This document shows, piece by piece, positions 638-10,916 of a stretch of 64,000 bases of DNA. Position 1 is the stretch's first letter. Each line of letters opens with the position of its first letter. The stretch covers positions 1-64,000 of the forward strand of contig CAUJGP010000014.1 in the NCBI GenBank assembly GCA_963170155.1, given 5' to 3'. The notes under the pieces were generated by a model. It was given only the letters and a program-made list of their open reading frames with translations, was not told the origin of the DNA and did no database searches. Origin of the DNA: Bdellovibrionota bacterium. GTDB taxonomy: Bacteria > Bdellovibrionota > Bdellovibrionia > Bdellovibrionales > Bdellovibrionaceae. The position numbers and the translations under genes were made by a program.

Positions 638-1102
638 TTAACTTTGGTCCTGCCTGCGCTTTTGGATTCCCGATGGACTGCCTTCGTCGAAAGTCAGATT
701 GACGACAACGCCATGACGCATTTGAACGGCGAAATACTGAATTAGGTCCATACCGAAGATCGGTTCACTGAGAGACTTTGATATGACCATCGGCCACTCA
801 TCAAAGAGAGTCACCCTGCCATCGGAGCCAGTCACTCGGATTGCAACGGCTGTGGTTGGTTCCTTAACCACACCGTTTGCTGTTTCACTGATCTGATCGC
901 CAAGATAAGGCATTACGTCGTCTAGGCCGAGTCGTTCCATCAATGCCGCCGTGATAACCGACGTGCTGGAGCCAGTGTCGATGAGCGCCCGAACTCTAAT
1001 AAATTCCCCGCTCGGCGAAGCGATTTCAATCATTGCGTAGTTGAGTTCTGATTCAGAATCGTCAGTTGGATATTGTTGTCCATAGTGGGCCAGCTTTTTC
1101 AT
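638..1102 (-). CDS. Retropepsin-like aspartic protease domain protein
   Basis: A 154-residue protein starting at ATG 1102 after GAGAGGT. Residues about 38-50 contain ALIDTGSSTSVI, the catalytic Asp-Thr-Gly-Ser signature of single-domain retropepsins, which act as homodimers. Residues about 112-120 (PIFGMDLI) fit the second conserved strand (hydrophobic-hydrophobic-G-x-D) of this fold. The length fits one protease domain and little else. There is no signal peptide, so it should be cytoplasmic. It lies downstream of the primase gene in the island. Its substrate is unknown; a role in processing an island protein or in host-defence escape would be speculation. Bacterial clan-AA proteases of this type exist, but few are understood. 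Confidence 0.7.
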   Translation of the reverse strand: MKKLAHYGQQYPTDDSESELNYAMIEIASPSGEFIRVRALIDTGSSTSVITAALMERLGLDDVMPYLGDQISETANGVVKEPTTAVAIRVTGSDGRVTLFDEWPMVISKSLSEPIFGMDLIQYFAVQMRHGVVVNLTFDEGSPSGIQKRRQDQS

Positions 1103-1147: not shown

Positions 1148-2278
1148 CTAGAAAAGTTTGACTGGCTTGATCGAAGAAATATCCACGGGGTCTGAGGACG
1201 AAGGAATTAAGGGAGAAGGTCTTCTCTTTGCCCTGAATCTCGTCTCAAAAGTTCTTCCAACCAGTTTATGGCAAGCGGAGCACCACACTATCCTTTTGCT
1301 CACGTTGATAAACGCAGACATGTTGCGGTCTTTTCCGCTTTTGTGGTCGGCCTGATTGGGACAACTCACTGAAAGTTTGCCGTGTCGAATGGACTTCGCG
1401 CTTTTTAGACCGTGATCTTGTATGAATTGCCAGGCAGCGGCCTCCGCCTCACTCAAATCAAGTAACTGCGGAAAATAATCCGCTTCAAATTCCTGCCTTA
1501 ATGGAACGTGGGAGTTCACAACGGGCTTGGAGTCGATCCATTTTTCCAAAGTCGTATTGTCTACTCGTCGTCCGATATAAAGAACACGGACCTCAACAGT
1601 CTCACCGCGCTTATTTGTCCTTAGAGTTCCAGGAAGACGCTCCATTTGGTTAATTCGACCAACGCCGCAATCAATCCAAGACGGCAGGCGCTCGAAGACT
1701 TTTCTGACAGTTCGGTCGAACTCACCACGCCCAATGCTCTTATCAAGTGCGATTCCAATGTGTGGGCCTCGTCCGCCCGTATCCAAGATATAGGAAATGG
1801 GGAGGTTGGTTTCCAAAATCTCTTTGAGCACCGTGATCTTGTCGTCGGGAGTCTTGATCTCCCTGCCATCAGAAAGCGAATCGGCTTCAATAAAAAAAGT
1901 TCGACCGCACTCAAATAACGAAGCTGACAGAGACAATTCCGCTCTGAGATCAGGAATCAAGCGGTCCCACTGCGTCTGGCCTAACGAGACAATCCTTTCC
2001 AAGTAATCTAGCTTTTCTAAGAATGATGACGGCACAGCGTTTGTGCAAAACTGAACGCCAGTGTCGCTATGCTCATTCAACCATACATTGATTACATTGT
2101 CGCTTCCAATTTCAATATACTGAGCATCAGCAGGGTGTTCGTGAGATCGCCTTTTAACCTGGATGCTTTCGCCAGCATCAAAAAGCAACTTAATGAACGC
2201 TGATAGATCTACGCTTTCATGCTGACGGTTCATTAACATCGTCAGCGTCTTTAAGAGTTCGTTTACTTCGTCGGACAT
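1148..2278 (-). CDS. Archaeo-eukaryotic-type primase (AEP) with C-terminal zinc ribbon
   Basis: About 376 residues when started at ATG 2278, which follows AAGGAAGA; an ATG at 2296 sits in front of that ribosome binding site. The middle carries AEP primase motifs: FFIEAD (acidic motif I), GGRGPHIGIAL (the G-x-H motif II) and IDCGVGRINQMERLPGT (motif III region with the RLPGT seen in PrimPol-type enzymes). The C-terminus has a CHC2/DnaG-like zinc ribbon: CPNQADH, then WCSACHK. Such proteins make RNA or DNA primers for replication of plasmids, phages and satellites. Downstream is the retropepsin-like gene; upstream is the VapE-type helicase, its likely partner. No helicase domain is fused to it, so the usual primase-helicase pair is split here. 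Confidence 0.75.
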   Translation of the reverse strand: MSDEVNELLKTLTMLMNRQHESVDLSAFIKLLFDAGESIQVKRRSHEHPADAQYIEIGSDNVINVWLNEHSDTGVQFCTNAVPSSFLEKLDYLERIVSLGQTQWDRLIPDLRAELSLSASLFECGRTFFIEADSLSDGREIKTPDDKITVLKEILETNLPISYILDTGGRGPHIGIALDKSIGRGEFDRTVRKVFERLPSWIDCGVGRINQMERLPGTLRTNKRGETVEVRVLYIGRRVDNTTLEKWIDSKPVVNSHVPLRQEFEADYFPQLLDLSEAEAAAWQFIQDHGLKSAKSIRHGKLSVSCPNQADHKSGKDRNMSAFINVSKRIVWCSACHKLVGRTFETRFRAKRRPSPLIPSSSDPVDISSIKPVKLF

Positions 2279-2423: not shown

Positions 2424-3656
2424 TCAAAAAGGAAATGAGTTTTCTTTTTTGTATTTTTGAATGAGATCGAGAGTTGTTCTGGTTATTCGATACCCCTTGT
2501 CGCCATTGTGCCCTTGACGATCTGCCAAATCCTTCATGCCGATATTCTTGATGCGACGATGAAAAGTGTTGCTTGGCTTTTGGCGCTCACCATTTTTCTT
2601 AGCGTACAGGCAATAAACCGCATACATTTCAGAGTTTGAAATGAACTCAACTCTAGCTTCTGGATCGCCTTCCAAAAACTGGAAGTAACCCAAGAAATCT
2701 TCATCGGCGTCAGACAAAACCAGTCTTTCCTGACGAACCTTGATTTCAGTCATATAGGGCGTGATGTACAACTGCTCTCGATTTTCGTCGATGCCTTGCC
2801 AAATTTTGAGCGCATCAAGACTATTCAAAGCGGCCCAATCCATTCTATGCAGCGATTCGATCTCAAAAAATCTGCGCATACCTGTTGAGTCCCGAATCAT
2901 TTCGCTGACGGACCTATTCGTCGCACCAACAAAGGTACAACTTTGGACCACGTTGACGTAAATGTTCGTGCCTAGCTTCCTAGTCTCGAAGGTGTCGGCA
3001 GAGACGATGTTCTTGAGAGCATCAACACTCGTTCGTTCCGCATACTGAAGCTCATCGCAGAACACTACGAAGCCGTCGCGCAGAAAAAGTTTCCATCTGT
3101 CATCCGTGATTTCGGACAACGAAGCGCTTTTGAACCAACCCAAGAGTGGCTTAAAGATTTTTCGTATTGCTTCGGTTTTACCGATTCCCTGAGCGCCACG
3201 AAAAATGACCATCTGATGTTCGTACACTCTTTTGTGAAAGATTTTGCGCTTCACCTGCCAGATCATGTGAGCCAATACAGCAAGCTCGACTTCGTCGCAC
3301 TTACCAGTCGCCCCGATTAGAAATCGCTTTAGCTCATCAAGGTTTTCGCCTGTGCATTTGATGGCGATTTTGATTTCTTCGAGCGCCTCTTGTTTCTTTA
3401 CTTCGAGATACTCCTCAACCGCCTTTACAAGATCTTTTTCTGGAAATCCCTTTATGCGGTCTTCTCGGTCGGACTCGCTGTTAAAATCGCGTAACTGACC
3501 CGTATAGTCCAGCCACATGCCGTTTAGAACCAACGAAAGATCAAAAGACTTGTTTGCTTCGTTGAGAATCAGACTGCCTTGGATTCTTAACTTTTTCAGC
3601 TTGAACCAATACGGAACGAACGCACGAGGGTTAGATAAAATTTCAACGATATTCAT
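2424..3656 (-). CDS. VapE/VirE-type superfamily 3-like helicase-ATPase
   Basis: About 410 residues from ATG 3656, preceded by GGACGAGGTG; the frame is open to 3719 but that part lies inside the ParB-like gene. The central region has a Walker A motif (FRGAQGIGKTEAIRK), a Walker B-like VVFCDELQ and a sensor-like CTFVGATNRS, followed by GMRRFFEIE. This arrangement is typical of the VapE/VirE (PF05272) helicases of prophages and satellite islands. The protein probably unwinds the island origin with the AEP primase encoded next. Only one base separates it from the upstream ParB-like gene, so the two are probably translationally coupled. The N-terminal 110 residues match nothing I recognise. Confidence 0.75.
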   Translation of the reverse strand: MNIVEILSNPRAFVPYWFKLKKLRIQGSLILNEANKSFDLSLVLNGMWLDYTGQLRDFNSESDREDRIKGFPEKDLVKAVEEYLEVKKQEALEEIKIAIKCTGENLDELKRFLIGATGKCDEVELAVLAHMIWQVKRKIFHKRVYEHQMVIFRGAQGIGKTEAIRKIFKPLLGWFKSASLSEITDDRWKLFLRDGFVVFCDELQYAERTSVDALKNIVSADTFETRKLGTNIYVNVVQSCTFVGATNRSVSEMIRDSTGMRRFFEIESLHRMDWAALNSLDALKIWQGIDENREQLYITPYMTEIKVRQERLVLSDADEDFLGYFQFLEGDPEARVEFISNSEMYAVYCLYAKKNGERQKPSNTFHRRIKNIGMKDLADRQGHNGDKGYRITRTTLDLIQKYKKENSFPF

Positions 3657-3657
3657 C

Positions 3658-4530
3658 TTACACCTCGTCCTTGCTGAATTTCTCAAGGAAGCGTTTGGCC
3701 AGAGCCGCAACATCGCCAACTGCGGCTATTGCTTTGTCGTCTGGGACCTGCTCTTTTGTGAGCATCGCATCTAACTCATCAGAAAAATCTATTGCTAGAG
3801 CTTCAAGGCTGGACATTTTGCGGCGGCACATCGTTTTTGCCGTTTCACTCTCCGCACGCACTTCTGACGTTGTAACTGGTTCGACGACCTGATGACTGTC
3901 AATAGAGGACGCTGATACTTCATGGACTGTTGACCCTGTCTCGTTCAATTCAGCTTCGGGTTTGGTTTGTTGCGCCTCTACGCGAGTTTTTTTGGAGAGG
4001 TTCATAACTTGATCTTTGCCGTTTTTAGTGAATTTAGTTGTGGTTCTCTCCGAACCGTTCGGGGTTAGTTCTTTTCTCAGCTTGGAAACAAAGCGATCTG
4101 ATACCCCAGCCAGCTTTGCGAGTTTGCCATCGCTCCAGGTTTTCCATTCGTCATCGTTGAGCAGAAGTTCAACGACTTTATTTTTGTCTTCGTTTGACCT
4201 TCTAAGGCCGACGTTGGTGTCCACACCGATGGCGAACAAAACAGCGTCTCTTCGATTCCCTTGGTGAACTCGAACGGAAATCTCGTTACGTCCGATACTG
4301 CGAGCGGCACTGTAACGATGAAACCCGTTTGCCAGCAAGTAACTTGAGCCATCATAGAAAACGTCAACAGGCGGGAACTCCGCGCCGTCTTGCATCTCTC
4401 TGGCGTATTCAGATATTGTTTCATCGTTGAGTTTGACTCTAACTTGCAAAGCTGAGTCTTGTTTGATTTGGTCCAGCGATAGCATCGTGGACTCTGTAAT
4501 TGTCGTACCTGGAACCTTTATGGCTTCCAT
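3658..4530 (-). CDS. ParB/Spo0J-like nuclease-domain protein
   Basis: A 290-residue protein starting at ATG 4530, 8 bases after GGAGG. Residues about 17-110 form a ParB N-terminal (ParB/sulfiredoxin fold) domain with LLANGFHRYSAA, the counterpart of the GERR-type nucleotide-binding motif. Residues about 125-155 (WSDGKLAKLAGVSDRFVSKLRKEL) look like a helix-turn-helix. The C-terminal third is polar and low in complexity. ParB-like proteins bind specific sites for partition or gene control, and phage and island versions may regulate replication. It heads the coupled pair with the VapE-type helicase. No ParA partner is visible here, so a regulatory or replication role is as likely as partition. 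Confidence 0.75.
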   Translation of the reverse strand: MEAIKVPGTTITESTMLSLDQIKQDSALQVRVKLNDETISEYAREMQDGAEFPPVDVFYDGSSYLLANGFHRYSAARSIGRNEISVRVHQGNRRDAVLFAIGVDTNVGLRRSNEDKNKVVELLLNDDEWKTWSDGKLAKLAGVSDRFVSKLRKELTPNGSERTTTKFTKNGKDQVMNLSKKTRVEAQQTKPEAELNETGSTVHEVSASSIDSHQVVEPVTTSEVRAESETAKTMCRRKMSSLEALAIDFSDELDAMLTKEQVPDDKAIAAVGDVAALAKRFLEKFSKDEV

Positions 4531-4651
4531 ATATGTGCCTCCGTTACGCTGTCAGGAGGCGTAAGAATAAAAAGTGTCCTTACCTGCTAAGGATTGAGCG
4601 ATTTGCCGCCCATATCCCTAACGATAAATTAAATGGGTCTGTGGTTGGTTC

Positions 4652-4674
4652 CGTGGGGAGAAGTCGTAAATTTG
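4652..4674 (+). repeat. 23-bp inverted repeat, left copy
   Basis: This 23-bp sequence (begins CGTGGGGAGAAG, ends AAATTTG) recurs in inverted orientation at 5810-5832 with one mismatch (T versus G at repeat position 16). It lies 5 bases past the stop codon of the unrecognised 4680-5783 gene and about 121 bases upstream of the ParB-like start codon. The two copies bracket exactly one gene. Sequence outside the 23 bp does not match, and no target duplication is evident. Confidence 0.85.
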
Positions 4675-4679
4675 TGGTT

Positions 4680-5783
4680 TCACCACTGATAATCTGTGCG
4701 CTTATTCCGTCTGCTTGGATTGCGCTTTTCAAGGAACTCCAGAAATTCTGGGCTGAGTAGGTTGAGGTTATCACTGCCATTTGAGCCAAAAACTTGGAAC
4801 TTACGGGTGTCGTTTTTCGGATTACCTTTTATCCTGTTCTTAATTCCTGTGCGGTCAAACAAGGGATCAATGTCATAACCCGTCTTCTCCTTCAGTCTCG
4901 CGGAGTCGTCACCGAACATATACTTTAGTTTAGTGGCTAAAAAGTTGTCGAAGTTATCTCGGAAGTAGCGCTCATTTTGGCTATCAAGTTCAAAGTAGGA
5001 ATGAAAGACTGAGTGATACGCCGCTATGAACTCTCTAAAGAATTGGTGCTCATCTGGACGAAGTGAAAAGAGAATTTTTTGTCCTTCGACAACTGGCTTA
5101 GCAAGATAGCGACCTCTTTTCGTTCCATCCTCACCAAAGTATTTTTTGTATCCTTTGATATGTCGATGTTTAATCTTGCCTTTGCCTCCGCTCCCGATTT
5201 CTTCTTCAGCCTCTTTAGCGATGTCATCCTCAAGTTTTGGAGCGTCCTCCAGATCACTCAATATAGAATCAAAAACGGCCTTCTCCAGCCCATATTCAAG
5301 AAACACAGTGGGCCTAGAATAGGAGCCGTCTTCATTTTTTCGATTAACTAAAACCAATGGGTCGTTTTCAATTCGTCCGAATTTTTTGTAAAAATCCAAC
5401 CCATCTTTTTCGCGGTCGTTGCGTGCTTCCGTTAAATCCAATGCGCGTTCAAATTCTTTCGTTTTATCTGCTTCTACTTTTTTTATAAAAGTCTGGATGG
5501 CGCTTAGGTACGCATCGCAAGTTTTGAACTTATTGATCGCCAAATCCTCGTTGATCGGCTCATGCAGAAATTGATTTCCTGTCCAGCGCATAAGCGCCTG
5601 ACGTGCCAAACATTCTAAAACACCATAGTCCTCGTCAGTGAGCATCCATTGCTCTTGTAGCTGTTTTTTGAAGGCATCAGGCTCGACCCAGTCGAACACT
5701 CGAAGATGAATTGGTTGTGATCTATAATGGCGGCTCATAACTCCATGATATTCCAAAAGTTGTATTAAAAAAAGCAGTCTCAT
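4680..5783 (-). CDS. Unrecognised island protein bracketed by 23-bp inverted repeats
   Basis: I do not recognise this protein. The frame is open from 5831, but the first codons lie in the inverted repeat. I chose ATG 5783 (367 residues), 9 bases after GGGAG; ATG 5738 (MSRHYRS start) is an alternative. The protein is soluble, charged and mainly helical by eye. It has no signal peptide or membrane segment. It has an acidic stretch near the middle (LEDAPKLEDDIAKEAEEE) followed by a basic one (GKGKIKHRHIKGYKKY), and many aromatic residues near FFREFIAAYHSVFHSYFEL. No transposase DDE/DEDD pattern, zinc finger or P-loop is obvious. It lies between the ParB-like gene and the divergent zinc-finger and recombinase genes. 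Function unknown; a mobility, replication or regulatory role is possible. Confidence 0.65.
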   Translation of the reverse strand: MRLLFLIQLLEYHGVMSRHYRSQPIHLRVFDWVEPDAFKKQLQEQWMLTDEDYGVLECLARQALMRWTGNQFLHEPINEDLAINKFKTCDAYLSAIQTFIKKVEADKTKEFERALDLTEARNDREKDGLDFYKKFGRIENDPLVLVNRKNEDGSYSRPTVFLEYGLEKAVFDSILSDLEDAPKLEDDIAKEAEEEIGSGGKGKIKHRHIKGYKKYFGEDGTKRGRYLAKPVVEGQKILFSLRPDEHQFFREFIAAYHSVFHSYFELDSQNERYFRDNFDNFLATKLKYMFGDDSARLKEKTGYDIDPLFDRTGIKNRIKGNPKNDTRKFQVFGSNGSDNLNLLSPEFLEFLEKRNPSRRNKRTDYQW

Positions 5784-5809
5784 AATGAGACGCTCCCTAG
5801 CGCAGTCAG

Positions 5810-5832
5810 CAAATTTCCGACTTCTCCCCACG
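5810..5832 (-). repeat. 23-bp inverted repeat, right copy
   Basis: This is the inverted partner of the repeat at 4652-4674, identical at 22 of 23 positions. It lies 27 bases upstream of the chosen start of the unrecognised gene and 37 bases before the divergent zinc-finger gene. It therefore falls in the likely promoter region between two divergent transcription units. Either an operator or a recombination site would fit that position. Confidence 0.85.
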
Positions 5833-5869: not shown

Positions 5870-6169
5870 ATGAACAAGATCGCAGGCAAAAATTCAGAAG
5901 GACCGACGAGCGGGAAAACCTGCTCGGCCTGCGGCGTTTCCAAGCCCGTTAGCGAGTTCTATTCAAAAGGCAATCGCACCGACAGCGCGTGCAAGGGCTG
6001 TCAGACAAAAAAGAAGAGAGCTAAGTATGTAGCCAACAAGAATCAAGATGCCGTTGCTGGACTGAAAGCGGTTCTTGGGATAACCACTCAGGGACTTGGC
6101 AAGCGAATCCGCTCTGAGATCGAAAAGTTAGATGAGGTAATTTTATGTCTGCAAAAATCAAAGCGGTGA
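5870..6169 (+). CDS. Small zinc-finger protein upstream of the recombinase
   Basis: A 99-residue protein starting at ATG 5870; no strong ribosome binding site is visible. Residues 18-45 contain CSACGVSKPVSEFY followed by CKGCQTKKKRAKY, a four-cysteine C-x2-C...C-x2-C knuckle like those at the start of phage HNH/recombination-endonuclease-VII proteins, but the nuclease part is missing. The rest is basic and helical. It overlaps the serine recombinase start by 25 bases, so the two are translationally coupled. The position suggests a DNA-binding accessory or directionality factor for the recombinase. That role is inferred from context only. Confidence 0.6.
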   Translation: MNKIAGKNSEGPTSGKTCSACGVSKPVSEFYSKGNRTDSACKGCQTKKKRAKYVANKNQDAVAGLKAVLGITTQGLGKRIRSEIEKLDEVILCLQKSKR

Positions 6170-7743
6170 GATTCGACCGAGTATCTTCAGCCGACCAACG
6201 CGATGGCTACTCCCTGGAAGCACAAAGAGATAACGGAACGTCATACGCGCAAAAGGCTTCTTTGAACGTCGTGAAGGTTTGGTCGGTCAGCGAAAGCGCC
6301 AGCAAAGAAGAAGACCGCACCGAGTTCTTCGAGATGATTGACTTCGTAAAACAGAATAAAATTGAAGCCGTTATTTTCGACAAGGTTGATCGTGCCTGTA
6401 GGGGTTTGAAGTCGGCAGTCATGATCGAAGAGTTGATGGATTATCACGGAGTCAAATTTCATTTCACGCGAGAACATCTTGTAATCGACAAAGAGTCGCC
6501 GCCTCAAGAAAAGCTAAGATTTTATCTTGGGATCATTTTAGCGAAGTATTACATCGACAATTTGAAAACTGAAATTCGCAAGGGCATCAACGCAAAGTTG
6601 GATGCTGGCATTTGGAACGGAAAGGCTCCATTTGGCTACAAAAATGTCATCGTTGACGGCAAGTCCACCATTGGGGTTCACGAATTGGAGTTTCCAGTTG
6701 GGATTGAATTATTCAACCTGTATGCGACTGGTAACTACGGATTTGAAGAACTGACAAAAATCGTTTCCGAAAAAGTACCGAAGAGAAAAAGAAAGAAAAG
6801 GTCGAAAAAGGGAGACGCGCAAGAGTCTCAGATAGTGGAAGTGGAGTTCACCAAAAGACTCGTTGAAGAGATGATTTCTAACCCTTTTTATTACGGCATG
6901 ATGAAAGTTAAAGGGACGATACGGAAAGGCACTCATCAAGCAATGATCTCTAAGGAATTATTCGACGCCTGTCAGAAGATTCGCGGTATTCGAGCAGCAA
7001 ATGCCCTTAGTACACGCAAAGGATTTATTCCTAAGCCACTCATGGGTGTGTTTACTTGCGGCGAGTGTGACCACGCAATCACGGGCGAATCCGTCAAAAA
7101 GAACAGTGGCAAAATTTACGTCTATTATCGCTGCGCGAATCAAAAGTGCCCTCAGCATAGAAAGCGCGTTGAGCAGAGCGACTTGTTCGCTCAGATCAAA
7201 GAAGCCTTTCTGCCTTTCAGAAAATGGACACCGAAAGCGACGAAGGCGTTTATCGACATGATCCACGAATCGCTTGGCGACCTCGAACTGTACACTCAGA
7301 AGATGACGGGTGAGCTTGCCGAGGCCCGTATTGAGCTAAAGAAACGTATTGAAGCACTCAACGTGTTCAAGAACGATGGGAAGCTCTCACAAGCCGAATA
7401 CGACGCGGCTGTTGCCGTTCCAATGAAGCTCTTAGAGGACAATACTGCCGAGATTCAAGCGTATCAGAACGCCGATCTTGCAACTTTTCAAAAAGGTGTG
7501 CAGGTCATCCAACTCTTCCAAAAAGCCTATGATTACATAAACTTAAATGGAAACGAGTTAGAGAAAGTAAAATTGATTAAAGCGGTCCTATCCAACCCGA
7601 AGTTGAAAGACCGAAGTATTGGATATGAATACGAAAAACCGTTGGATGTCCTTTTAGACTTGCCAACGGTTCCCGTATGGTGGAGGCGGGGGGAATTGAA
7701 CCCCCGTCCGCAAGTGATCCACGATAAGGCGCTACATTCTTAG
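6145..7743 (+). CDS. Large serine recombinase (integrase) of the island
   Basis: 532 residues from ATG 6145 after GATGAGGT. The N-terminal resolvase-type catalytic domain (about 1-150) has RFDRVSSADQRDGYSLEAQ, with Ser14 the likely nucleophile and Arg12 beside it, and further motifs FDKVDRACR and REHLVI. A Recombinase domain (about 160-270, GKAPFGYKN start) and a zinc ribbon (about 304-340: CGECDH, then CANQKCPQH) follow, then a coiled-coil region (about 375-440). Such enzymes join attP to attB without homology. The last 21 codons, from 7678 on (WWRRGELNPRP...), lie antisense over the tmRNA 3' end. The C-terminal tail thus comes from the target site and would differ in the excised circle. This is the island's probable integrase, and its gene ends at the insertion boundary. 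Confidence 0.9.
   Translation: MSAKIKAVRFDRVSSADQRDGYSLEAQRDNGTSYAQKASLNVVKVWSVSESASKEEDRTEFFEMIDFVKQNKIEAVIFDKVDRACRGLKSAVMIEELMDYHGVKFHFTREHLVIDKESPPQEKLRFYLGIILAKYYIDNLKTEIRKGINAKLDAGIWNGKAPFGYKNVIVDGKSTIGVHELEFPVGIELFNLYATGNYGFEELTKIVSEKVPKRKRKKRSKKGDAQESQIVEVEFTKRLVEEMISNPFYYGMMKVKGTIRKGTHQAMISKELFDACQKIRGIRAANALSTRKGFIPKPLMGVFTCGECDHAITGESVKKNSGKIYVYYRCANQKCPQHRKRVEQSDLFAQIKEAFLPFRKWTPKATKAFIDMIHESLGDLELYTQKMTGELAEARIELKKRIEALNVFKNDGKLSQAEYDAAVAVPMKLLEDNTAEIQAYQNADLATFQKGVQVIQLFQKAYDYINLNGNELEKVKLIKAVLSNPKLKDRSIGYEYEKPLDVLLDLPTVPVWWRRGELNPRPQVIHDKALHS
7678..7743. other. Island/chromosome junction at the tmRNA 3' end (candidate att site)
   Basis: The recombinase gene runs into the antisense strand of the tmRNA 3' end here. 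Integrative elements commonly insert at the 3' end of ssrA and keep it functional, so this is the probable chromosomal attachment junction. The second copy should lie at the far (left) end of the island, outside this window. The exact crossover bases cannot be fixed from one junction. Confidence 0.6.
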
Positions 7744-8022
7744 TCAGTGATTTAGTTTGTTCCTACCGCTTCCGCTGACAAAATCAGTATGAACACTCCC
7801 CCAGTAAATTTAAGCGAGTCTGCTGGAGAAAACCCAACTCACCGAGGTTGCTAAATGACGATCTGTCCTCGACCGCAACCACATCGAGGCAGATCGTGCA
7901 GTCAACTAAGCTGCAAGTGCGTAATCGTTGCCAATTACAAAGTGCACATTGTTAACGGGGTCCTCATGCGCCCCGGAATGCTCCTTATGCTTCTGCACCC
8001 ACGTCGAAGCCGTGACGCCCCC
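7678..8022 (-). ncRNA. ssrA: Transfer-messenger RNA (tmRNA, ssrA)
   Basis: A 345-nucleotide RNA read from 8022 down to 7678. The 5' end GGGGGCG pairs with CGCCTCC near the 3' end (7 pairs, one G-U), followed by A and an encoded CCA. The 3' part carries the tRNA-like T-arm (GGGGGTTCAATTCCCCC), and the 5' part has GGCTTCGACG, typical of tmRNA. The tag frame at 7932-7906 reads GNDYALAA then UAG; the ALAA ending is the classic protease tag that rescues stalled ribosomes. The gene appears intact although the island abuts its 3' end, so the island preserves or restores the terminal bases. SmpB is not in the window. Confidence 0.95.
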
Positions 8023-10187: not shown

Positions 10188-10916
10188 TTAAAAATAGTAG
10201 GTATAACCCAATGTGGCCAAAATCCCTGAGAGAGTTGTGCCTAAATCACGATTGTTCATTTCCACTTCTTCGCCTGATTGCGTCGGCCCGGTGATCCCCG
10301 AACTCCATCCTCCGGCGGAAGAAACTGCAGTGGCTTTATTGCGTTCAAACGGCAGATAACGGAAGTTACCTTCTAAATTAAAGCAATGATCATCAAAGAA
10401 ACAAAACTCCGCGCCCAAGCCGGTGATACCGCCAAAGTTACCGCCCGAAAATTCCATCGTGCTGTCGTTTTCCCGAATTTTTCCAGTCAAGCGACCGTAG
10501 CCAACACCGATTTGCATATAAAATTTCATGAACGAGTTTTCCAAAGGGGTCATGCGAAACATCGGAAAGAACGTCCATCCACTTAATTCATAATTGTACT
10601 TAGCCCCAGAAGGATCGCTTCCCTTAGAGCTTTGAGCAAAAACTGATGGTCTAAAAAGAAGAGCAAACATAGTCCCACCGAATTCATACATATATTGAAA
10701 CGTGAGTTCATAGCCTTGCCCCAAAGGTTTTGTACTGATTCCGCCAGCAACGGAGTTCGCCGTAGAAATCAAGGTGTCAAAGTCGTCTTGACTGGGAGAA
10801 GTGAAAATCATGGCTCCACCAATACTGTGGGTCCCGCCAAAACTTCGCCCCTGAGAAGCCACCGCAAACAAAACAGTGATCGCAAACAAAACCTTCCTTA
10901 AACAAACTCTATTCAT
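10188..10916 (-). CDS. Outer-membrane beta-barrel-like protein
   Basis: 242 residues from ATG 10916 after GAGGAGTG. It has a signal peptide (residues 1 to about 24: basic MNRVCLRK, hydrophobic LFAITVLFAVASQG). The mature part alternates polar and hydrophobic residues in about eight strand-like segments, rich in G, F and Y (FYMQIGVGYGRL, FNLEGNFRYLPF), and ends in GYTYYF with a terminal phenylalanine, the usual outer-membrane insertion signal. The size fits an eight-stranded OmpA/OmpW-like barrel. Two cysteines in CFFDDHC may form a loop disulfide. No specific family is recognised. The gene has its own terminator, and DivIVA is encoded just upstream. Confidence 0.65.
   Translation of the reverse strand: MNRVCLRKVLFAITVLFAVASQGRSFGGTHSIGGAMIFTSPSQDDFDTLISTANSVAGGISTKPLGQGYELTFQYMYEFGGTMFALLFRPSVFAQSSKGSDPSGAKYNYELSGWTFFPMFRMTPLENSFMKFYMQIGVGYGRLTGKIRENDSTMEFSGGNFGGITGLGAEFCFFDDHCFNLEGNFRYLPFERNKATAVSSAGGWSSGITGPTQSGEEVEMNNRDLGTTLSGILATLGYTYYF

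Follow-up and report, generated by a model that had tools for sequence, protein, structure and literature searches.

The window analyzed here, a 64,000-nt stretch of DNA that begins at a contig end, carries part of an island of a Bdellovibrio-type bacterium that is integrated at ssrA and encodes a large serine integrase. Its relevant features, including a gene that we call gene X and the two inverted sites (arms) that flank it, are as follows.

1148..2278, minus strand: unclassified 376-aa protein, in the same operon direction, primase-like by position only
2424..3656, minus strand: replication helicase of the VapE/DUF5906 type, from domain searches
3658..4530, minus strand: ParB-like protein (ParB N-terminal type plus helix-turn-helix [HTH]), heading the operon that lies downstream of gene X
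4577..4593, no strand assigned: palindrome TCCTTACCTGCTAAGGA, between the left arm and the ParB-like gene
4652..4674, plus strand: left arm, between gene X and the ParB-like gene, 121 bp ahead of the ParB-like ATG
4680..5783, minus strand: gene X; its 367-aa product has no known domain and is a distant member of a small Bdellovibrionota family
5810..5832, minus strand: right arm, 26 bp ahead of the gene X ATG and, on the other strand, 37 bp ahead of the zinc-ribbon ORF ATG
5870..6169, plus strand: zinc-ribbon-like open reading frame (ORF), 99 aa, first gene of the integrase operon; relatives stand ahead of related integrases
6145..7743, plus strand: large serine integrase (Resolvase, Recombinase, and zinc ribbon), its end overlapping the ssrA 3′ end
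7678..8022, minus strand: tmRNA gene ssrA, the integration target

The domains of the integrase and the end of its gene within the tmRNA 3′ end identify the element as a large serine integrase island in ssrA, and integrases of the same family occupy ssrA in three further genomes and tRNA-Ala in two. The search for a second island end gave nothing, and the ssrA end has no further copy when up to 3 mismatches are allowed; the left end is absent because the window starts inside the island. Bases 1-145 resemble, by eye, the end of an insertion sequence, which may explain both the assembly break and the absent left end. As unusual cargo, the island carries a retropepsin-like aspartyl protease gene (638-1102, minus strand; PF13975, E 2.4e-8). 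The closest integrase relative (67%, also at ssrA; L034:9341-11170) belongs to an island that has neither gene X nor VapE but an MCM-type helicase. Relatives of the ParB-like protein (36-46%) are present on IMG/VR contigs L041-L044, three of which have a serine recombinase several kb off, with a long ORF (~1,180 aa) coming next. These contigs were considered as a context for gene X and rejected, being unrelated phages with no gene X near.

According to the layout of the neighboring genes, gene X and its arms separate two divergent operons, which serve integration and replication/partition, respectively. The left arm reads CGTGGGGAGAAGTCGTAAATTTG on the plus strand and the right arm CGTGGGGAGAAGTCGGAAATTTG on the minus strand; the two agree at 22 of 23 positions, and the bases beyond both arms are without match. 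The single long ORF that they enclose is gene X. The first-pass annotation had described a 22/23 inverted repeat with unmatched flanks that brackets exactly one gene beside a serine recombinase and has no visible target duplication. All of this was borne out, the enclosed gene by an ORF check and the recombinase as the large serine integrase that ends in ssrA. At up to 3 mismatches, the arms are the only two copies in the 64-kb window, where shuffles expect none, and the sole such pair in the 2.85-Mb genome. Comparison of the upstream and downstream flanks of gene X returned the same 22/23 match with a shuffle p of 0.002, and the pair is not due to chance. No promoter consensus was seen at the arms, which have little dyad symmetry, unlike most operators, and the 23-mer was absent from viral contigs. 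A role as attachment sites was rejected since the arms bear no similarity to the ssrA junction and attachment region (p 0.5 to 0.8). At the start of gene X, AGGGAG lies just 5′ of the ATG (5783), and the frame stays open to a GTG at 5831, inside the right arm. A GTCTCATTATGAGAC palindrome (5777-5791, minus strand) spans this start codon, and hairpins were noted by eye where the zinc-ribbon ORF starts and at the ribosome-binding site of the ParB-like gene.

The gene X product alone had no match in Pfam, NCBIfam, PHROGs, PADLOC, or PDB sequences, and single-protein scans of genome, viral, plasmid, and phage collections found nothing. A weak match in G130 (E 9.8e-4) led to a 303-aa protein encoded divergently from a serine integrase that overlaps tRNA-Leu. 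Single-sequence matches in G043 and G251 were subthreshold, and another in G329, also subthreshold, was discarded as an unrelated ORF. A two-sequence profile retrieved members in G318, G007, G305, and G192 and a fragment in G190, and a profile of the neighboring HTH gene led to one further member, in G173, so that the full-length family numbers seven (the window, G000, with G130, G318, G007, G305, G192, and G173). Collection scans with the family alignment (A4) returned only genomes already found and nothing viral. Pairwise identities range from 16 to 43%, excluding the near-identical G305/G192 pair, and E-x2-FRQ and A-x-KLNFEFG are among the shared motifs. No member is more remote than the window protein: in hhalign, a profile built without it scored 35.1 against it (probability 35%), whereas the highest of 150 shuffles reached 22.7 and the reversed sequence 17.8. 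Taxonomically named records with members are assigned to Bdellovibrionota, Bdellovibrionaceae, Bdellovibrionales, and Bacteriovoracaceae, and the searches indicate a small remote family confined to Bdellovibrionota within the collections covered.

The AlphaFold model of the window protein was poor (pLDDT 41); that of the G318 relative (pLDDT 73) is nearly all-helical and had no fold match in PDB or BFVD. The window protein is slightly acidic (pI 6.5). No DNA-binding domain was recognized in gene X by sequence, Pfam, NCBIfam, PHROG, PDB, or fold, and no transposase or recombinase family or fold was found. The earlier statement that the product could not be placed in any family therefore holds for Pfam, NCBIfam, PHROG, PADLOC, PDB, and fold comparisons, but a remote Bdellovibrionota family does exist; profile searches gave six remote relatives, and neither they nor structure prediction led to a known family or fold. 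The family is new to the libraries searched, and we infer its mode of action from context. For all six other full-length members, the next gene downstream is an HTH gene, in many cases with a DNA methyltransferase after it, and the window gene X lies directly upstream of the ParB-like gene, itself ParB plus HTH. In the window, G130, and G007, a serine integrase with a small ORF ahead of it is transcribed away from gene X; for G318, whose contig ends at this point, the same arrangement is taken from its 88% DNA match to G130. The orientation of gene X is identical in all seven islands.

We then compared the upstream flank with the downstream flank of each gene X, using shuffle-based, uncorrected p values. 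Inverted sites flank five of the seven full-length members, and their sequence differs from island to island. Besides the window, the gene-between-sites layout is kept in four genomes: G130 has a 17/18 inverted pair exactly around gene X (L033 9727-9744 / 10742-10759; p 0.002), G318 a 34-nt bipartite inverted match (p 0.004), G007 a 12/12 match with a further 10-nt block whose spacing is conserved (p 0.014 to 0.018), and G173 a 12/12 pair (p 0.003 to 0.02). Every gene X with a tRNA or the integrase side directly opposite it, five in all, has such sites. The first-pass annotation had suggested searching related genomes for the gene with and without the repeats, and G305 and G192 proved to be exceptions of the second kind. 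No inverted pair was detected there: the upstream site is missing, AbiE-side or other genes directly precede gene X, and the near-identical gene X proteins have a common downstream site, GGGGAACT-N16-AGTTCCCC. For G197, where other genes precede the HTH copies, the one flank tested gave no site pair. AbiE-type toxin-antitoxin genes, recognized by eye, lie on the gene X upstream side in three genomes (L074:10163-11583, L075:10309-11750, and L073:839-2289).

The orientation of the sites was equally consistent. Direct-orientation scores for the same flanks were at background (best 6 to 10), all four clearly asymmetric site pairs are inverted, and in the four clear cases both sites are oriented alike with respect to the divergent operons that they face. 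The flank score was also calculated, as an external control, for 391 ORFs from about 30 loci. Ten of them reach the level of the weakest positive gene X, five of these being gene X itself, and the chance of at least five of seven family members falling in the top 10 of 391 is about 7e-8. The other top-ten ORFs mostly have AT-rich flanks, and one represents an AbiE-side site. A 229-aa gene divergent from an AbiEi-like gene (L073:2331-3020) is flanked by TGACATTTTT...AAAAATGTCA sites, which are among the two strongest flanking pairs of the 391 ORFs. Dyad symmetry noted by eye in G007 and G318 failed the shuffle test and was consequently left out of the evidence; only the G173 downstream site was significant. 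The comparative approach that worked here was to seek genes whose flanking site pair recurs in layout, not in sequence.

Arms that are complementary in every case despite differing sequences could also act at the RNA level, by pairing within one transcript as a panhandle around gene X that governs its translation or decay, and the G130 arm indeed ends 5 nt before the start codon. The mismatches, however, are not enriched in G-U wobbles (by eye, 2/10 in G318 and none of those in G000 or G130), the bipartite sites leave a 15-nt, mostly unpaired center, and no Rfam family other than tmRNA was found. We regard such a device as highly improbable.

The islands of G130 (L033) and G318 (L071) come from different families of the phylum, and their DNA is 86 to 95% identical outside the arm-to-arm block, which indicates a recent transfer between distant Bdellovibrionota. 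By region, DNA identity is 87% for the integrase, 95% for the small ORF, 94% for the small-ORF upstream region, 86% for the HTH leader, and 93% for the HTH gene. From arm to arm it falls to 41 to 61% (about 50%), and the edges of the divergent block lie 21 bp before the left arm and 13 bp after the right arm. Gene X and its sites therefore change as one block while the flanks are conserved, a covariation that rests on this one natural pair, to which the window's own island does not belong. Since the flanking integrase, small ORF, and HTH proteins are conserved, the changed sites would most simply be read by the gene X product.

This comparison bears directly on the possibility that the arms are operators for another island protein (the ParB-like or HTH protein, the zinc-ribbon ORF product, or the integrase), with gene X merely lying between them. 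The arms do border the promoter regions of exactly those operons, and ParB and HTH proteins often bind near their own genes. In five islands, a TTACAG-N4/5-CTGTAA palindrome stands directly ahead of the HTH gene (L033:10679-10696 and the same place in L071, L072, L074, and L075), with second copies ~2 to 3 kb further on in G318 and G192, and it is likely an operator of the HTH protein. By position alone, the palindrome at 4577..4593 of the window may be its counterpart. Nonetheless, the TTACAG palindrome is constant between G130 and G318, as expected with a conserved HTH protein, whereas the arms differ even though the HTH gene, small ORF, and integrase are 87 to 95% identical. We consider it unlikely that the arms serve one of these other proteins.

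The same block could instead be a mobile or exchangeable cassette, the arms being terminal or recombination sites for the gene X protein, as a new transposase or recombinase, or for another recombinase, with the block exchanged at a fixed place. A single gene in ~1.0 to 1.2 kb with terminal inverted repeats less than ~100 bp from the ORF would fit, as would the near coincidence of the mosaic block edges with the arms. Insertion sequences share the single gene, the terminal inverted repeats, and a size of about 1.1 kb, but gene X matches no transposase or recombinase family or fold. Moreover, no target duplication is visible in the window or, by eye, in G130 and G007, the segment has one copy in the genome, its place between the two operons does not vary among islands, and the divergent block reaches 13 to 21 bp past the arms. 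A cassette, raised in the first-pass annotation as a minimal mobile unit, is disfavored on these grounds and seems to us distinctly unlikely.

Disfavored as well is the proposal, from the same source, of an invertible segment that the adjacent serine integrase would flip at the arms for phase variation. Although near-identical inverted repeats adjoin a serine recombinase, both orientations would be expected and only one is seen (7/7 islands). The neighboring enzyme is a large integrase that uses ssrA or tRNA sites, its attachment region is unlike the arms, and islands with integrases of 87% DNA identity have different arms. Inversion is thus very improbable.

A replication initiator also has to be weighed, as replication and partition genes come next in the window. 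In some plasmids, the Rep gene is flanked by iterons on either side, and the iterons change jointly with the initiator; by this parallel, gene X would be a Rep protein and the arms iteron-like copy-control sites. However, each side has one inverted site instead of an array of direct repeats, no direct iteron array beside a Rep gene was found, gene X gave no Rep family or winged-helix match, and a VapE-type helicase is already present in the window. An initiator is accordingly quite improbable.

With the pairing, recurrence, and position of the sites and their joint change with gene X established, the operator pair is the best supported of the three readings offered by the first-pass annotation, given its fixed place between operons, its shared polarity, and its joint change with gene X. 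The original observation is confirmed and is stronger than could be seen at that stage, and we favor the operator reading in the form of a co-changing control module. Specifically, the equal polarity of the sites and the parallels with lambda and Cluster A phages lead us to propose that the segment is an island control module resembling a phage immunity region, in which gene X would encode an immunity-type control protein and the arms would be its cognate sites. We hold this reading tentatively, with a confidence somewhat short of even.

That gene X and its sites change together is what gives the segment its likeness to a phage immunity region. In heteroimmune phages of the lambda/434 type, repressor and operators are exchanged together while the flanks stay homologous, and the G130/G318 pair is the one case in which such a joint change with conserved flanks was seen here. 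As in the lambda immunity region (OL - rexBA-cI - OR), a control gene candidate lies between site groups that face divergent integration-side and replication-side operons. The segment differs from lambda in having one asymmetric site per side, compared to three dyad operators (the G173 downstream site being the only dyad-symmetric exception), a gene X product without a recognized HTH, a serine-integrase island as host, and binding that is proposed from sequence. In Cluster A mycobacteriophages such as L5 and Bxb1, the sites are asymmetric, 13 bp long, and mostly in one orientation relative to transcription, and site motifs and repressors diverge together and define heteroimmunity (PMC6550527). 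Asymmetric, oriented sites and the joint divergence of sites and regulator are likenesses to this repressor/stoperator system, which however has 20 to 30 sites and a helix-turn-helix repressor, against two sites and no recognized DNA-binding domain here. The master repressors of integrative and conjugative elements and phage-inducible chromosomal islands (ImmR, SetR, and Stl types) are HTH repressors that act at one divergent promoter beside the integrase. They resemble gene X as regulators divergent from the integration genes of an integrated island, but no HTH family matches gene X, and the sites lie on either side of gene X itself.

In the proposed mechanism, gene X would encode a site-specific control protein, most simply a repressor. 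The right arm would be its cognate site in the promoter region from which gene X and the zinc-ribbon/integrase operon are divergently transcribed, and the left arm its cognate site at the promoter region of the ParB-like/replication-helicase operon. The pair would be inverted because the two controlled operons point apart, which gives each site equal polarity relative to its own operon. The gene X protein would bind both arms, perhaps looping over its own ~1-kb gene; in lambda, CI forms a bridge between OL and OR over a distance of about 2.3 kb (PMC5880393). Once bound, it would repress, holding the integrase/excision and the replication/partition genes off until induction.

A bolder version of this proposal, which we consider doubtful but worth stating, is that gene X represents a new family of no known fold that recognizes and acts on its own flanking sites. 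The site-gene-site unit would then be a self-contained and exchangeable specificity module with a fixed place in the islands of these predatory-lineage bacteria, constituting either a new class of immunity repressor with no known DNA-binding fold or a new recombinase-like exchange cassette. If the control reading is right, the islands have immunity groups of their own, determined by a protein family absent from current libraries. This would provide a handle on silencing, competition, and mutual exclusion of mobile elements in predatory bacteria, and the ability of islands to coexist could be predicted.
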